Source of the DNA: Rhizophagus irregularis
Lineage: Eukaryota > Glomeromycota > Glomeromycetes > Glomerales > Glomeraceae
Direction: 5' to 3'
Assembly: GCF_026210795.1 (NCBI RefSeq)
Contig: NC_089440.1
Coordinates: 372,001 to 436,000 of the forward strand
Length of the DNA: 64,000 nucleotides
Part shown: positions 20,065 to 60,975 of the stretch, piece after piece
Position numbering within the stretch: position 1 is the stretch's first letter
How the letters are laid out: every line of letters starts with the position of its first letter
Position numbers and translations under genes: made by a program
Notes under the pieces: generated by a model
Database searches by the model: none
The model's input: only the letters and a program-made list of their open reading frames with translations
What the model was told of the DNA's origin: nothing

Positions 20065-20451
20065 TAGAGATGGCAACGGTCGGTCATGGTCAGTCATCGG
20101 TCGGTCATAACTGGTCAAGAACCTTTGACTGACCGACCGACCATTTGACTGACCGGTCTGACCGACCGGTTAACCGACCATTTGACCGACTGGTTAACCG
20201 ATCCTGAAAACGTTTGCGAAATGTAATTTAATTGAAATACTTAATAAAAAACATTTTTGCAACGTTTTCTATTAAAATAATTAAAAAAACATTTGCGAAA
20301 CATTTTTTTTATTAAATTACATTTCGCAAACATTTTCAGGATCGGTCGAATGGTCGGTCAAACGGTCGGTCAGAGGTCTTTGACCGACCGATATCGGTCA
20401 CGGTCATGACCAGTCATAACCGGTTAATGACCATGACCGTTGCCATCCCTA
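20065..20451. mobile_element. hAT-type MITE, copy 1 (387 bp)
   Basis: The ends read TAGAGATGGCAACGGTC and GACCGTTGCCATCCCTA. The 8-bp target duplication AGCATGAT is at 20057-20064 and 20452-20459, as expected for hAT transposition. The subterminal parts are arrays of GACCGACCG/CGGTCGGTC words, and the centre has GTTTGCGAAA-type repeats. It is the same family as 24733-25130. Confidence 0.92.
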
Positions 20452-20674: not shown

Positions 20675-22132
20675 ATGCCTTTCGAATGTCCTCAAGATGT
20701 TGCCAATGATTATGAGAGTTTACTTACTAATACTAATATAGTAGATTATGATGTTATTATTTATGCTGGTAATAACAATAGAGAAATTTATGCACACTCA
20801 TTTGTATTACGTACAAGGTCTCAATATTTTCGTACAGAATTCTCTAATGGATCGTTTAATAGGGAGAATGGAAATTTTATTTTTAATTTACCTAATATTA
20901 CCCCTCAATTATTTAATATGATTTTAAGGTATAGTAAAAGTTACTTGTACATGGATATCATACAAAATGCTAATAATTTGCTTGCTAAATTTCAGATTTA
21001 TTTATTGCGGAAAGATTGATTTGGATCAATTACTAGCTGGATCTGATATTTTAAATCTTTTGATAGCAGTAAATGAGATTAATATTCAAAGATTAATCGA
21101 CTATATTCAGGAATATTTGATTAAAAATAAAGATGATTATGTACAACAAAATTCTATTGAAATTCTTGAAAAGATTCATCAAAATAATGCTTTTATAGTT
21201 TTACAGAATATTTGCATCAAGAAAATTTGTGAAGATCCTCAAAGATTACTTAATTCAAGTAATTTTAACAGTTTAAGTACATCTTTATTGGCGTTACTAT
21301 TTAACAGGGACGATTTACCGCTAGACGAAATTGTTATCTGGGATAATTTGATTAGATGGTGTCGGGCTCAACATTCTAGCATTCCACAAGATCCTACACA
21401 ATGGAATAATGACAATATCACAAATATGGAGAGAACTATTCATAGATTTATTCCATTGATAAGGTTTTGTCATATTTCTCCGGAAAATTTTGCTACCAGA
21501 GTATTTCCATTTAGAGAAATATTACCAAATAATTTAGTTAATAATATGATTCAATTTAACATGACTAAAAATCAGCAATTCAATAATGATAGGCGACCTC
21601 CTAGATGTTACATTGATTCTGTTATAATTGACCGAAATCACATTGCAGTTTTTGCAAATTGGATTTATAGGAAAGATAATTCTGTGGATACATTCCTTAT
21701 AGGTTTAATCTTTTATATAGAGCCAGCAGGGATGGTAACGAATGTGCAGTATTTCATGAAAAATGTGGTAATGGTGCTACTATTGTTATTGTAAAAGTTC
21801 TAGGTTCGGAACAAATAGTTGGAGGATATAACCCACTTAGTTGGCATCCAAATGCGAGTGTAGAATGGAAATCTACTCGCGATAGCTTTTTGTTCTCATT
21901 TGCAAATAGAAATAACCTTGACAGTGCAAAAGTTGGTTATAGTAATGGTGATGCATATTCTATAGGTCGTAATTCTGATGGTATTCATGGTCCAATATTT
22001 GGTAGGGGTATTGATTTAAATCTTTATAAAAATGTTTGGTATAGCGATAAATCAGTATCTTATCCTAAAATAGATATACCAAAAAAGTTTATTGCAGATG
22101 ACTATGAAGTTTTTCAAGTCATCAAAAAATAA
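20675..22132 (+). pseudogene. BTB-BACK-TLDc gene 3, one frameshift
   Basis: Exon 1 is 20675-20928 and the intron is 20929-20995 (67 bp, GT-AG). Exon 2 starts at 20996 with 'FIYCGKIDLDQL'. BTB ('YDVIIYAGN', 'RTRSQYFRTEF') and BACK ('LFNRDDLPLDEIVIWDNLI') are intact. Near 21690 the frame moves by one base. The original frame runs on to a stop at 21794, while the TLDc domain ('LLYRASRDG', 'VGGYNPLSW', 'DYEVFQVIKK') continues in the other frame to 22132 without further breaks. A single lost base explains it. This is either a young pseudogene or a sequencing error. It is the most divergent of the five paralogues. Confidence 0.85.
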
Positions 22133-22658
22133 CTATTTAACATTCAATGCATGTAGTAAAAAAAAAAAATATTAAATTATCTAAGGAATAAACTGTATTT
22201 TATTTATACTATTTGATTAAGTCATTTTCTTTATCATTATTAATTTTACGTTATATCTGTTAAATGATTAAAAATAAATCCTTTTTTTTTAAATAATTCT
22301 AAATTTCTAATTCCAAATTATTATTTATTAAAAGAAATATTATAATTTATTTCAACAATCTGATAAATAGTCATCAATCTAATGCTTGTAATCATTTTTA
22401 TAAAGTGATAATTTGAAAATTTTTCTTCATACTTACTTATTATTAGGAATAATTTAGTGTTTCGTCAAATCATCAATACTCTCTCTTAATTTTTTATCTC
22501 TAATACAATTTCTTACCTAAAATCTCAAAGATTTCAATGATCTTCTCAAGGCAAATAATATTTATATCATTTTTCCTATAATAATTATATGAATACTTAC
22601 TAAACAATTCATATATGGTGAATTTCTTCCAGGCTATTCATGTATTTTATCTGGTTTA
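22133..22658. other. Gene-free stretch
   Basis: AT-rich 3' flank of the BTB-TLDc gene, with no recognised feature. Confidence 0.5.
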
Positions 22659-23018
22659 CACAGTGAAATTCGATAATCCGGATCACGTGAACATTAACCA
22701 ATAAAATTTAAGTAACATGATGTTGTGAATCTTAACTTTGGCCAGAATTATAAAAATCTTAATTCCGGCTGAAGTTATGTATTACTTATATCTTCAATTA
22801 AAAATATTTTATATTCATTTTCATGAACTCTGCGACTTAAAACTAAGATGAAAAAATTAAATTATAGCGTATATTAGTTTTATTAGTATGAATTTTTTGA
22901 AGATTCAGTATAATAGTAGATTTTCAGTATATTAAAATTTTTTCGCTATACCGGATATTCCGATAAACCGGATATTTTTAGTGGAACCGATAGATCCGGT
23001 TTATTGAATTTCGCTGTG
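22659..23018. mobile_element. Tc1/mariner-type MITE, 360 bp
   Basis: CACAGTGAAATTCGATAA at the left mirrors TTATTGAATTTCGCTGTG at the right, with two mismatches. TA flanks both ends (22657-22658 and 23019-23020). The GGAT/ATCC blocks just inside also pair. It carries the 49-bp palindromic repeat, so it was itself a target. It is non-autonomous. Confidence 0.75.
22731..22779. repeat. 49-bp palindromic repeat, family copy B
   Basis: This is the inverse of the copy at 11369-11417 with a few substitutions, and it sits inside the mariner-type MITE. Confidence 0.6.
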
Positions 23019-23184
23019 TACATTCTAGTTATATAAAATTTGTTTGTCATATAAATGGTGCAATGCTTGTACTTGTGATCAATGCTTCTATATTATTTTC
23101 ATATAATAAAGGGTGTTTAATAAGAAAAAAAGAAAAAAGATATTTACTTTATCTTTTTCAATTAGGGAGAATTTTGATATAGCA

Positions 23185-26100
23185 ATGGACCAATGTATTT
23201 GTAAAGGTAAAGCATATAACATGAATAATAACTAATATAAATTAGAATCATTCAAAATTATTAAAACAAACTTGCAATATAATAAAACTAGTTTTGTGTG
23301 ATACCCAAGAACCTGAAGGTAAATATAATATACAAAGTAAAATTGAAATATTAAGATTTTTATTTATTAAAAAAACTTAATTATAAATAATCAAATATAA
23401 TTAAACCAAATTTGCAATATAACAAAACTAGTTTCCAGTAATATTGAAGAAATTGGCACCGGTGAATCTAGAGGTATATCAAACAGGCTGAAATATTAAA
23501 TTTTTATTTATAAACAATTCAAATACTATCTAGGATAACTATATTATATAAAAATTATAATAAATATTTAGCTCGTAAGTTAATAATGAATTACTCATTA
23601 TTTTTATTGTATTCCATACAACTAAATAATTTATTTAATAATAATACTATAGTTGGTAAGTTATCAGTTATTTAAATCTTTAGTCCTTTACTTTATTTAT
23701 TATACAAAACATTCAAATAACTAAATTCTTTGTTTAAATAACTATTTAATAATTAATTATATTACAGATGGTAAGTTACAATATATTATATTATATTTAT
23801 TTGTTTAATATTTTAACATAATTCAACTAATTATATTCTTAATTTAAATAACTAGATTGTAAGTAATATATTTAATTTACAGTAAATACTTTTATATTAT
23901 CTATATTTAACTAATTAATAATTAATAATACTACAGGGTGTAAGTTATATGATATCTATATTTATATTATTTACGTAATTTAACTAATTTCTTTATTTAA
24001 AAAATTATTTCATAGATGGTAAGTTATTTATTAATTTTATTATTACTTATTGTTATAATATTTACATATAATTTAAACTAACCAATTTATTTATTTAAAA
24101 AATTATTTAATAATATAGAATGTAAGTTATTTATTTAATTCTATTATTATATATTGTTATAATATTTACATATAATTTAAACTAACTAATTTCTTTATCC
24201 AAAAATTATTTTGTAATTTAATTTAGTTTGTAAGTCATAATTTATTTATTTAATTCTATTGTTACTTAGTATTGTTATAATATTTACATATAATTTAAGC
24301 TAACTAATTTTTTTATTTAAAAAATTATTTTGTAATTTATAAGTCATAATTTATTTATTTTAATTCTATTATTATTACTTATTGTTATAATATTTGCATA
24401 TAATTTAAATCAACTAATTTCTTTATTTAATAGAACGTAAGTTATAAGTATTTTTATTACTTATTGTTAAATATTTACATATAATTTAAACTAATTTCTT
24501 TATTTAAAAATTATTTATGATCTAGCTTGTAAGTAACTCTATTGTTATATATTTTATATAATATTTATTTGTTAACTGAATTCTTTCATTTAAAAAATAT
24601 CTGTTACTTTAGTCGGTAAGTTGTAAATCATAGGTTATTTTATGTATTTATTTAAAAATTAAGACTTATATTTCATTAAATTCCTATTTAAATTTTAGAG
24701 TAAGTAATAATTTATTTTGTATAAATCATAATTAGGGATGGCAACGGTCGGTCATGGTCGGTCATCGGTCGGTCATAACCGGTCAAGAACCTTTGACCGA
24801 CCGACCGACCGTTGACTGACCGGTCTAACCGACCGGTTAACCGACCGTTTGACCGACCGTTTGACCGATCCTGAAAACGTTTGCGAAACGTAATTTAATT
24901 GAAATACTTAATAAAAAACGTTTTCGCAACGTTTTCTATTAAAATAATTAAAAAAACGTTTGCGAAACATTTTTTTTATTAAATTACGTTTCGCAAACGT
25001 TTTCAGGATCGGTCAAACGGTCGGTCAAACGGTCGGTTAACCGGTCGGTCAGAGGTCTTTGACCGACCGATATCGGTCACGGTCATGACCGGTCATAACC
25101 GGTTAATGACCGTGACCGTTGCCATCCCTAATCATAATACAATCTATAATATAATTTTAATTTTTTAAATTTATAGATTTGGGAAAAGTGAAAATAAAAT
25201 TATAGATGATTTTATTCTTGAAAAAAAATTAAGATGGATTCCTTATAACAAATTTAAAAATTTTGTATATCTTAATGAAGGAGGATTTGGTACTGTAATA
25301 TACAAAGCTATTTGGTTAAAGAATAATGATGATGATGATGTAGAAGTAATTCTTAAATATCACAAGAATTTAAATGAAAACTTAAATGAATTTTTGAAAG
25401 AAGTATGATAGTTATAATTTGCTATTTGTAATTTAAATTAAAATTTAATTATATTAATAAATTATTATTATTTTTTCTAGTGGGAATATAATGCAATTGT
25501 TTTAAGTTCAAACGATATTATAAACTTTTATGGATTCACAGAAGATCCAAATACATCGAAATATATGGTAGTAATGGATTATGCAAATAAAGGTAATTTA
25601 AGAGAAAATTTAACAGGAATAGTCGAAAATAATTGGAATCAAAAATTACTTATGTTGTACGAAATTATTTCTGGACTTAATAAGATACATGAAGAAAAAC
25701 TTATTCATTGTGATATTCATGATGGTAATATTTTAAATCATGATGGTGAAAAATTTATATTAGTGATTTAGGATTATGTCAACCTGTAAAATCGTTTTTG
25801 AAAAAGTATGATATTTATGGTGTTATATCATTTATGGCACCTGAAATTTTAAGAGGTAGATCTTATACTCCAGCTAGTGATATATATAGTTTTTCTATGA
25901 TTATGTGGGAGTTTACATCTGGAATACCACCATTTAATAATAGAGCACATGATCTTCAACTTACTTTAAGTATTTGTAAAGGTGAACGTCCTGAAATTAT
26001 TGAAAATACTCCACAATGTTATGTAGATTTAATGAAAAAATGTTGGAATGAAGATCCATTAAAAAGACCATCTTCTGAAGAAGTATTAAAAATTATTAAA

Positions 26101-26560
26101 AAATGGATTTTCCATCCTGATGATGATGAAATTAATGAAAAATTAAAAAGCAACATTATGGAATTTATAAATGCACCAATTGGGAGTAACAAACTTGCTA
26201 CTAAATCTCATCCTGAAGCATGTTTTACAAGTCGCTTACTTGATTTTACTAGTAAAAAATTGAATGAAATTCTTGAAAGTGAAAATTCACAAACATATCA
26301 TGCAAGACATTCAGATTTGAATGTTTGTGTAATTAGAGATTTGAAGTCATTAGGTATATATTATAATATATAAAAATTAATCTTGCAAATTATTTATATG
26401 AAATTAATTAATTTATTTAATTATTAAAACAGATGAGAATACTAGTAAAAAGTTGAATGAAATTCCTGAAAGTGAAGATTCACGAGCTAGTGTAAAAGCA
26501 AATGAAGTGCTAGTAAGTGAAGATTTAAATGATTATATAATTAAGGGACTGGGTCATTAG
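23185..26560 (+). CDS. TKL-like protein kinase gene with a micro-exon 5' region and one frameshift
   Basis: Proposed start ATG 23185, with exons 23185-23206, 23292-23318 and 23432-23473, all ending in phase 1. The micro-exon array 23572-24615 follows. The kinase exons are 25177 (or 25206)-25402, 25481-26353 and 26433-26560. The N-lobe has 'LRWIPYNKF', the glycine loop 'NEGGFGTV' and the Lys strand 'VEVILKYHK'. The C-lobe has the catalytic loop 'HCDIHDGNIL', 'ISDLGLC' and 'MAPEIL'. This preamble and kinase type is hugely expanded in Rhizophagus; function is presumably Ser/Thr or Tyr signalling, targets unknown. One T is missing from a T run at 25754-25756, which shifts the frame just before 'SDLG'. 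It is a decayed gene or a read error. The 5' exon assignment is inference; the kinase part is firm. Confidence 0.75.
23572..24699 (+). other. Tandem intron array with 3-nt micro-exons
   Basis: Eleven sites have an acceptor AG, exactly three bases, then GTAAGT. The triplets are at 23572 CTC, 23653 TTG, 23768 ATG, 23856 ATT, 23937 GGT, 24016 ATG, 24119 AAT, 24227 TTT, 24434 AAC, 24526 CTT and 24613 TCG. A twelfth site (24699) has one base between AG and GTAAGT. Spacing is 78-112 bp, with one double unit where a deletion near 24338 removed a site. Most intervening sequences carry a CTAAC/CTAAT branch-point-like word before the acceptor. Intron bodies have diverged widely but the splice motifs have not. 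In phase 1 the first eight triplets read A-L-D-D-W-Y-E-F, and the ninth would create TAA unless skipped. Confidence 0.7.
24733..25130. mobile_element. hAT-type MITE, copy 2 (398 bp), inside an intron
   Basis: TAGGGATGGCAACGGTC and GACCGTTGCCATCCCTA are perfect inverts. The 8-bp duplication ATCATAAT is at 24725-24732 and 25131-25138. It is about 90% alike to copy 1 at 20065 and has the same CGGTCGGTC arrays. It sits between the last micro-exon and the first kinase exon, so it lengthens that intron to about 475 bp without touching the splice sites. Confidence 0.95.
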
Positions 26561-26669
26561 GTATGTACTATGATATATAAAAGAATTAATCTTGCAAAAT
26601 TGCTATTTATGTTAAATTAATTTTATTTAATATTAATTATTTAGATATTAAAGCAGATGAAAATTAACT
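26354..26669 (+). repeat. Duplicated terminal exon-intron of the kinase gene
   Basis: The junction TCATTAG|GTATATATTATAATATA at 26347 and TCATTAG|GTATGTACTATGATATA at 26554 are copies. Each is followed by about 75-110 bp of similar intron and an acceptor 'aaaacAG' or 'aaagcAG', then ATGA. The second terminal exon would end in AAAATTAACTAA at about 26664. The copy has a one-base shift, so translation probably stops at 26558-26560. Confidence 0.6.
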
Positions 26670-27886
26670 AATCATTGTTTGTAAATTATAGTTTTATAAC
26701 TTTTCCAATTATGAGATATAAATTATCAAAATAATATTTCCAATAATAATGTAAAATTTTTTATACTTATTCCAATAGCTGATTGTACTTAACTTAATTT
26801 ATATTTCAGTTGTTGACATTTATTTTTAATATTATTTAAATATTTTGTTAAGAAACTACACAAATGATATCTGCTGGATTATACAAAGCATTTTTTTTTC
26901 TTGATAAACAAACTTTATTCTATTTTGATGTACAAGTACAAATGTACTTACTAAAATGAACATATATATTAATTTATTGCTTGATGTAATCAAATTAAAA
27001 AAAATTCAAATGTATAATAAATTATTATGTCACAAATCACAGTAAATAGTTCACTTGTTTATCAATAAGAAACCTTATCGTTCATCATATTTTTATTAAA
27101 CATGATGGCAATAACACATGATTGATATAATAAAGTAAATGAATATTTTGTAGGAAAAGTTTAAATAAAGCTAATAAAGCGGACTAAAAATAGCATAAAA
27201 ATGAAGAAGCTTATTTATGATGTTTTATTAATTAATGCACGATCAATAACGTCAGAATGATAACACCATTATTGATATATCGGTCCTGTGACCAATAAGT
27301 CAATAACTATTTAATAAATATTTTGCTGTTGAGAAAATATAGGGCGTAACTAGATTGTTAGGTATATTTTCGAGTAAGTGAGTAACTGAGCTATTTTAAA
27401 AATTTGTTTTTATCTAATAATTTAAATAATAAAAATTAGCGAATAGTAAAATTTTATCAATAAATTGTATAAATTGACTGACATATAAAAAAGTCATTTT
27501 TTTTTTGCATTTTACAAAAAGTCTATCTGAATTACCACCGGCCAGTATTAACCTAGAAAATCTTTTCCTTGTGTAAAAAAATTACATATACTTTTATTTT
27601 GGAATCATTTAAAGAGTCATGTTTTAAGTCAAAGTGATGGGCTTTCAATGATTTTTATTGGAATTGGAATTGGAAGAATTGGGAGTCCACTTCCAATGTC
27701 ATTTGCGATGATTGACACGTGAAAATCATCAAGTAATTAACATTTTTCGCTTGTTATCCCGATTGATAAACCGTTAATTGATATTTGTATGACATATAAT
27801 GACAGATCAGAATTCGGTACTTTAGGAAAAAAAAATTATTCAAACATACATTGCATCGTAATTTTTTTTTTTTTTGATACTGCGTT
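26561..27886. other. Gene-free AT-rich stretch
   Basis: 3' flank of the kinase gene. No ORF with motifs, inverted repeat or RNA gene was seen. Confidence 0.5.
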
Positions 27887-28417
27887 TCAAAATTCGATCT
27901 GCAGACTGTAATTTGGCGTTAAATAATGCAGGCTTGCGTAAACTATGAATGCAAATCTTTCTTTTTGGATAGCTTCAATCTCATCACACACATATTCAAC
28001 ATACATTGCATCGTAATTTTTTTTTTTTCGATACTGCGTTTCGATAATTTGATCTGCAAGACTGTAATTTGGCGTTAAATAATGCAGGCTGACGTAAACT
28101 ATGAACGCAAATCTTTCCTTTTGGATAGCTTCAATCTCATCACACACATATTCAACATAGATTGCATCGTAATTTTTTTTTTCAATACTACGCTTCGTCT
28201 GCAGACTGTAATTTGGCGCTAAATAATGCGGGCTGGCGTAAAGCCATACAGAGCACACAAAATCTTTCTTTTGAATAACGCAGTCAGCTTCAGCCCCATC
28301 ATATACATCATATTTAAATATAAAAAGTATATAACATAGGATTTCATAAATTTTATTCTTTATCTCCGATATTTTTATTTTTATTTTATTTATTTTAAGA
28401 GATGGATATTTTCTCAA
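27887..28417 (-). CDS. Possible protein made of a threefold repeat of about 50 residues
   Basis: The minus-strand frame holds three copies of a unit such as 'AIQKERFAFIVYASLHYL' followed by 'TPNYSL', plus an acidic linker 'YVEYVCDEIEAIQ'. At DNA level the repeats begin near 27899, 28055 and 28199 (period about 145-155 bp). The frame stays open through all three despite indels in A/T runs, which argues mildly for coding. The 5' end overlaps the start of the divergent gene at 28402. I do not recognise the unit; it may only be a DNA tandem repeat that happens to be open. Confidence 0.35.
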   Translation of the reverse strand: MRKYPSLKINKIKIKISEIKNKIYEILCYILFIFKYDVYDGAEADCVIQKKDFVCSVWLYASPHYLAPNYSLQTKRSIEKKNYDAIYVEYVCDEIEAIQKERFAFIVYVSLHYLTPNYSLADQIIETQYRKKKNYDAMYVEYVCDEIEAIQKERFAFIVYASLHYLTPNYSLQIEF

Positions 28418-60694: not shown

Positions 60695-60764
60695 AATGAA
60701 ATTTTTTTTTTGCAGTGTGGGTATGGCAAGCCGTACTAAGTCAAAAGGTTGATAACTTTTCATC

Positions 60765-60975
60765 ATGTTTTATGATGATTTTTCATCATGTTTCATGATA
60801 ACTTTTCATCATGTTTCATGATGACTTTTCATCATGTTTTATGATAACTTTTCATCATGTTGACATGATGACTTTTCATCATGTTGATCATATTTTTCAT
60901 CATATTTTATGATGTTTTTCACCATGTGACATGAAATTTTTTCATCATGTGTTGAATAATCTTCATCATGTTTCC
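60765..60975. repeat. Palindromic CATCATG tandem repeat
   Basis: Around nine copies of a 23-25-bp unit, 'ttttcatcatgtttcatgat', most with a self-complementary core CATCATG...CATGATG. It starts about 70 bp upstream of BTB-TLDc gene 5, so it may affect that promoter. Later copies are degenerate. Confidence 0.8.

Follow-up and report, generated by a model that had tools for sequence, protein, structure and literature searches.

A row of phase-1 exons of 3 nt each, joined by the spliceosome and closed by an exon of a single nucleotide, probably codes for a short peptide that separates the N-terminal exons of a Rhizophagus gene from its kinase domain; from the sequence, we put the probability of this reading at roughly 85%. 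The array that we started from, in a 64-kb stretch of DNA (hereafter the window; C12:372001-436000), is one small member of a genome-wide system of arrays. The window copy itself is short and decaying, and the interest of the arrays lies in the family. A first-pass annotation of the window had proposed that 3-nt micro-exons form a symmetric phase-1 array upstream of a kinase, and this much stands for the Rhizophagus genome; the 1-nt exon and the genome-wide extent were both absent from it. Alternative skipping, which it offered as the purpose of the array, is not supported, since stop codons are avoided at the junctions between neighbouring exons alone.

Eleven AG-NNN-GTAAGT sites (AGNNNGTAAGT) lie between 23570 and 24621, all on the plus strand and spanning 1.05 kb, with none elsewhere in the window, and their triplets are exactly those that the annotation had listed (Table 1). 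The shuffle check that it proposed bears out the excess: 100 dinucleotide shuffles gave a mean of 0.99 and a maximum of 4 sites, and none reached 11. GTAAGT occurs 12 times between 23001 and 24800, 11 times at 3 nt after an AG and once (at 24700) at 1 nt after an AG; in a free length spectrum of array stretches, nearly all GTAAGT are placed 3 nt past an AG. The 22-, 27- and 42-nt exons upstream of the array were also confirmed, and together they give phase 1, in agreement with the frame of the array. The merged unit at 24230-24433 is likewise real, with about 10 nt carrying acceptor, exon and donor missing relative to the preceding unit (by eye and by gap alignment). Rfam returned no structured-RNA match at gathering score in window positions 22000-28000.

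Table 1. Parts of the array gene in the window, with window coordinates.
Feature	Coordinates	Strand	Support
Exon 1, 22 nt, MDQCICK, ends in phase 1	23185..23206	+	like-built N termini in public models P0002, P0004
Exon 2, 27 nt	23292..23318	+	like-built N termini in P0002, P0004
Exon 3, 42 nt, ends in phase 1, donor GTATAT	23432..23473	+	like-built N termini in P0002, P0004
3-nt exon 1, CTC	23572..23574	+	motif search
3-nt exon 2, TTG	23653..23655	+	motif search
3-nt exon 3, ATG	23768..23770	+	motif search
3-nt exon 4, ATT	23856..23858	+	motif search
3-nt exon 5, GGT	23937..23939	+	motif search
3-nt exon 6, ATG	24016..24018	+	motif search
3-nt exon 7, AAT	24119..24121	+	motif search
3-nt exon 8, TTT	24227..24229	+	motif search
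Lost-unit remnant (one ~10-nt deletion took acceptor, exon and donor)	24325..24345	+	by eye
3-nt exon 9, AAC; TTT-AAC is the sole in-frame stop in 12 arrays	24434..24436	+	
3-nt exon 10, CTT	24526..24528	+	motif search
3-nt exon 11, TCG	24613..24615	+	motif search
Putative 1-nt exon A (TTTTAG-A-GTAAGT), phase 1 to phase 2	24699..24699	+	
MITE-like inverted-repeat insert, 8-bp target duplication ATCATAAT, inside the last intron	24733..25130	.	
First kinase exon, A-TTT GGG ..., phase-2 entry	25177..25402	+	
Second kinase exon, ends at a frameshift-made stop; kinase continues downstream in another frame	25481..25771	+	

We searched the whole genome (146.7 Mb in 32 contigs) for the same architecture. 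The single motif occurs 9493 times versus 5234 for the reversed pattern, and three consecutive units spaced as introns would space them occur 2302 times versus 24, while the triple pattern with 4-nt exons is found once (reversed, twice). Ten array loci were chosen from about 100 first-listed motif places (the kinase loci L009 and L043 to L050, and L010), and two further kinase loci, L054 and L055, were added through matches to public proteins. The 12-array set analysed below consists of the window and the eleven kinase arrays, which lie on contigs C1, C2, C11 and C15; the arrays are mutually related. Units were called by fixed donor rules within hand-set ranges, dropping matches less than 40 bp from the last one and admitting exons of 3 or 6 nt alone, which gave 433 units: 11 in the window and 18 to 66 in each of the others. 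Scaled roughly from the 142 triple matches among these 433 units, the genome would hold about 7,000 units; scaling the single-motif excess by the share of units with GTAAGT (363/433) gives about 5,100, again roughly. The downstream part of the array gene is a kinase domain (Pfam), with Rhizophagus relatives among the best 120 of 1170 matches, and the kinase part of an intact locus (L048, C2:279000-288900) shares 100% identity, across 80% of the query, with P0001 (Rhizophagus irregularis DAOM 197198). Arrays also lie upstream of an AIG1-type GTPase and of another kinase type.

Splice sites were examined from 315 anchors in the branch region. An intact AG-(3 or 6)-GT/GC came after 300 of the anchors; 12 were followed by the acceptor alone (some of these have rare donors, and one unit was counted twice), 3 by neither and none by the donor alone. 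The donors of the 433 units are GTAAGT in 363, GTATGT in 26, GTAAAT in 20 and others in 24. We suggest that these near-perfect GTAAGT donors exist because a 3-nt exon would give U1 no dependable exonic bases, for which each intron may have to compensate. Five called exons are 6 nt long (TTGTTG, CAGATG, GGAGTA and, twice, AGAGTA), and CAGATG could equally be ATG. Some units deviate in other ways: GC-AG introns with donor GCAAGT occur at L009 3798 and L054 5490 in otherwise GT-AG arrays, and sub-lineages of units are marked by AAG and ATG triplets paired with donor GTAAAT in L047 and by a GGC triplet paired with GTATGT in L046.

In a phase-1 reading, each codon combines the last base of one 3-nt exon with the first two of the next, some 90 bp away. 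Among the 421 neighbour junctions of the 12 kinase arrays (433 units), a single such codon is a stop, against 17.9 expected. When exon order was shuffled, the null was 18.0 and none of 5000 shuffles gave as few, and the other junction frame holds 72 stops against a null of 61.0. Counting distinct neighbour pairs, which counters block duplications, left 1 stop in 218 pairs against 10.6; the shuffles keep the relatedness of the arrays, and the distinct-pair count merely lessens its effect. The one stop is TTT-AAC of the window, at the deleted unit. Under a stricter first donor list there were two phase-1 stops in ten kinase arrays against 15.7 (0/2000), and the second, in L047, was gone once we admitted GTAATA as the donor of a unit that can be seen in the sequence. 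Because the bases of each codon are split across an intron, a DNA motif cannot account for the avoidance of stops; the arrays would have to be read whole and in order. Hence the sequence evidence says that whole rows are, presumably, spliced together and translated. Every exon of the intact relatives would then be joined successively in genome order, adding one residue each, and the predicted chain of L048 would run ...KESK-ALDDWWGWKHEGTVYLGESVFKFVIVSDRRIFE-FGKS... (conceptual translation).

The single-nucleotide exon is retained across loci. The pattern TAG-A-GTAAGT located 63-93 bp ahead of AG-ATTTGG has 91 sites genome-wide versus none for the reversed pattern, and for at least 72 of the 91 a same-strand kinase match lies no more than 1.5 kb downstream. 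Three of the remaining 19 (L009, L047 and L049) were read in sequence as kinases, bringing the sites ahead of kinase exons to at least 75 of 91. A base other than A in the 1-nt exon, sought with a TTTAG pattern, occurs at 3 sites genome-wide. The window's own 1-nt exon escapes the 91-site pattern because the insert at 24733-25130 lies in the last intron. The frame was followed at nine of the 12 loci (all except L044, L045 and L046), with the start of the kinase exon placed by motif. In 9/9, the upstream frame without the 1-nt A meets a stop in the kinase exon, and with the A it enters the conserved start E-F/Y-G-x-S. Judged by reading frame, the putative 1-nt exon A (24699) is needed between the array and the kinase exon.

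Two alternatives compete with the ordered, coding chain. Combinatorial alternative splicing, in which exons are skipped freely to yield many short protein variants, would draw on called units that are 3 or 6 nt long, such that a skip never shifts the frame. Junctions that skip one exon, however, carry stops at the chance rate (20/409 versus 17.5 expected), as do those skipping two (22/397 versus 16.9), three (22/385 versus 16.4) or four (18/373 versus 15.9) in the same 12 arrays. Stops are avoided at neighbour junctions and not at skip junctions; therefore, it looks as if selection had acted on entire arrays as ordered chains, their exons would be included constitutively, and we reject combinatorial skipping as the main use of the arrays. 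Occasional skipping is still compatible with these counts; free skipping we regard as improbable. The same lag test, with neighbour junctions alone protected, led us to reject a satellite without a coding role, namely one large intron filled with a non-coding tandem repeat whose unit chances to carry AG-NNN-GTAAGT. Tandem Repeats Finder does report part of the window array stretch as a 104-110-bp tandem repeat with 81-82% matches, and one public model (P0004) omits the array and joins exon 3 directly to the kinase exon (by eye). Yet the avoidance of stops across introns is specific to exon order, a direct splice to the start of the kinase exon meets a stop at 9/9 loci tested, and both splice sites are kept while the triplets vary. 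We consider this explanation barely credible.

A chain of the same exons in phase 0, closed by a 5-nt exon AGTAA in place of the 1-nt exon, is the path of another public model, P0002, which reads about 30 L055 triplets as complete codons before ending in LSK (by eye). The 12 arrays are indeed free of any stop triplet in phase 0 (0 versus 15.7 by column shuffle). Against this reading, exons 1-3 end in phase 1, the avoidance of stops at phase-1 junctions would be needless, the donor following AGTAA varies among loci, and L057, a later array of 23 units, contains a TGA triplet in phase 0 (it has 0 phase-1 stops where the null is itself 0). A phase-0 chain is very unlikely, and we retain the phase-1 chain closed by a single A. 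A third model, P0059, links the L054 triplets in phase 1 before entering the kinase exon (by eye), and so the public models disagree over the array stretch. We searched the protein collection with the conceptual L048 protein (best 120 of 1170 matches) and with a 128-residue piece from the array onward (83 matches). Among the 203 proteins retrieved, 66 carry the kinase-start motif preceded by three or more residues. Over the last 75 residues, the leaders of these 66 differ, and several are of low complexity and resemble the triplets in phase 0. The full predicted phase-1 peptide is in none of these 66 public leaders (by eye). An isolate comparison through P0094 gave a best match of 93% identity, and a clear partner locus was not found.

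We then compared the rates at which exons and introns change. The first five exons read A-L-x-D/N-W in 7/12 arrays; in 10/12 arrays, the identity of the first five triplets (0.57-1.00) is not clearly above that of their introns (0.85-0.88 over aligned columns, 0.65-0.80 with gaps counted). Between nearest units whose flanks are 8% different, exon letters differ by 24-39%, and AG and GT are unchanged, which is partly imposed by unit calling. With the opposite flank as the test, in-register pairs within arrays (105 and 91 pairs) differ by 8% in introns and 26-31% in exons; without the in-register filter, the closest class within arrays differs by 28-30% in introns and 31-35% in exons, the neighbours having been picked on flanks and the unfiltered intron difference being, we think, mostly from missing gap alignment. 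It is suggestive that exon letters change about three to four times faster than introns in the closest in-register pairs. This fits diversifying selection, constrained or homogenised introns or, in part, an artefact of the filter.

A second type of intron occurs in arrays of other genes. L010+L011 (C1:1722000-1736000) holds 68 called units (the last doubtful) with introns of this type, upstream of a coiled coil and the AIG1-type GTPase (Pfam E 1.3e-17). Its stops number 0 in phase 2 against 2.4 expected (P 0.006), 6 in phase 1 and 3 in phase 0, and a 26-nt exon, chosen by eye, would connect the array in frame with the coiled coil. The start codon of this gene would be split over two exons (AT-G), and its peptide is in part proline-rich and duplicated; a search of the protein collection with the first 110 residues of the conceptual GTPase protein gave no match at E 10. 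L056 has 19 units upstream of a cysteine-rich kinase. By eye, its 29-nt exon 1 ends in phase 2, and one of two acceptors would let the following exon continue in that phase. Its array is free of stops in phases 2 and 0, with a single stop in phase 1. Pooling L010+L011 and L056 with the doubtful unit dropped gave 0 phase-2 stops against 1.58 (P 0.04), a weak test. The second-type intron pattern is found at 28 places genome-wide, in L010+L011 and L056 only.

The stop at TTT-AAC had been interpreted as a built-in off switch, a reading that our results do not support: the two exons adjoin, and the stop arises, solely because the unit between them was deleted, and the kinase frame of the same gene is broken as well. 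A frameshift at 25740-25771 leads to TAG. A public model, P0130 (listed as Rhizophagus irregularis DAOM 197198), includes the window's first kinase exon (by eye) and shares its frameshift end, and therefore the window gene is probably a pseudogene. P0130 starts with MTGHNR, a string encoded by the window's inverted-repeat insert (by eye). This insert has terminal inverted repeats TAGGGATGGCAAC..., with ATCATAAT on both flanks, and we take it to be hAT-like. A repeat at 20077-20201 (CGGTCGGTCA/GACCGACCGG) is related to it, and further tandem repeats in the window lie at 27837-28242 (156-bp unit) and 60750-60974 (23-bp unit).

An array might grow or shrink by tandem duplication or loss of a unit made of an intron plus one codon. 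Each such gain or loss would alter the protein by one residue and keep the frame, so that splicing would turn a satellite of about 100 bp into a peptide whose length and sequence vary. We tentatively extend this to a genome-wide diversification of peptides at the DNA level instead of through alternative splicing, in which such intron-plus-codon satellites lengthen, shorten and alter single residues in perhaps a hundred signalling genes (kinases and AIG1-type GTPases) and the variable peptide possibly acts in recognition, although we would not bet on it. By estimate, such a device would include several thousand exons of one codon and about ninety of one nucleotide in a single fungus. If RNA confirms the chains, there is practically no minimum size for an exon, even where dozens follow one another, and the splicing machinery is able to chain tiny exons faithfully. 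At the N terminus, the public models of array genes that we inspected would be incorrect. Splicing would also be seen to render a satellite repeat harmless, or even to make it useful by supplying protein variation.

We found no report of such arrays in Rhizophagus among the titles and abstract openings searched, a scope outside which most subscription journals and bioRxiv fall; a paper on SP7 effectors has no bearing on the arrays. Introner elements disperse one intron sequence into many genes, with target duplications, whereas the units here stand in tandem within genes. The exons of aphid bicycle genes are small, and we know of no row of one-codon exons in them. Bicycle genes are a fast-evolving family recognised by exon structure (PMC9168663), a likeness to the arrays, but their proteins are unrelated to those of the array genes. 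Tandemly duplicated, mutually exclusive exons are multiplied within one gene (PMC9741552), as here, but one exon is used per row, and in our arrays it is the neighbour junctions that are free of stops. Plant micro-exons of 1-15 nt include the 1-nt exons of APC11 and VPS55 (PMC4674806, PMC8831610), and those of VPS55 have well-conserved GTRAGT donors and are often missed by annotation (PMC8831610). The arrays share their build, 1-15 nt between an AG and a strong donor; the plant exons are single, at conserved places in old genes, whereas the arrays comprise, by estimate, thousands of exons in tandem rows. The micro-exon genes of schistosomes consist mainly of short symmetric exons, of 36 bp or less, that can be removed with the frame kept (PMC8293314). 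Short symmetric exons are found here in the array part only, as 3-nt exons with one 1-nt exon, in tandem rows (11-66 called units in the 12 kinase arrays) within fungal kinase and GTPase genes. The array gene does not belong to the schistosome families, having a kinase domain (Pfam) with Rhizophagus relatives among the matches listed, and skip junctions are unprotected; stops occur there as often as chance predicts, an argument against variation by skipping.
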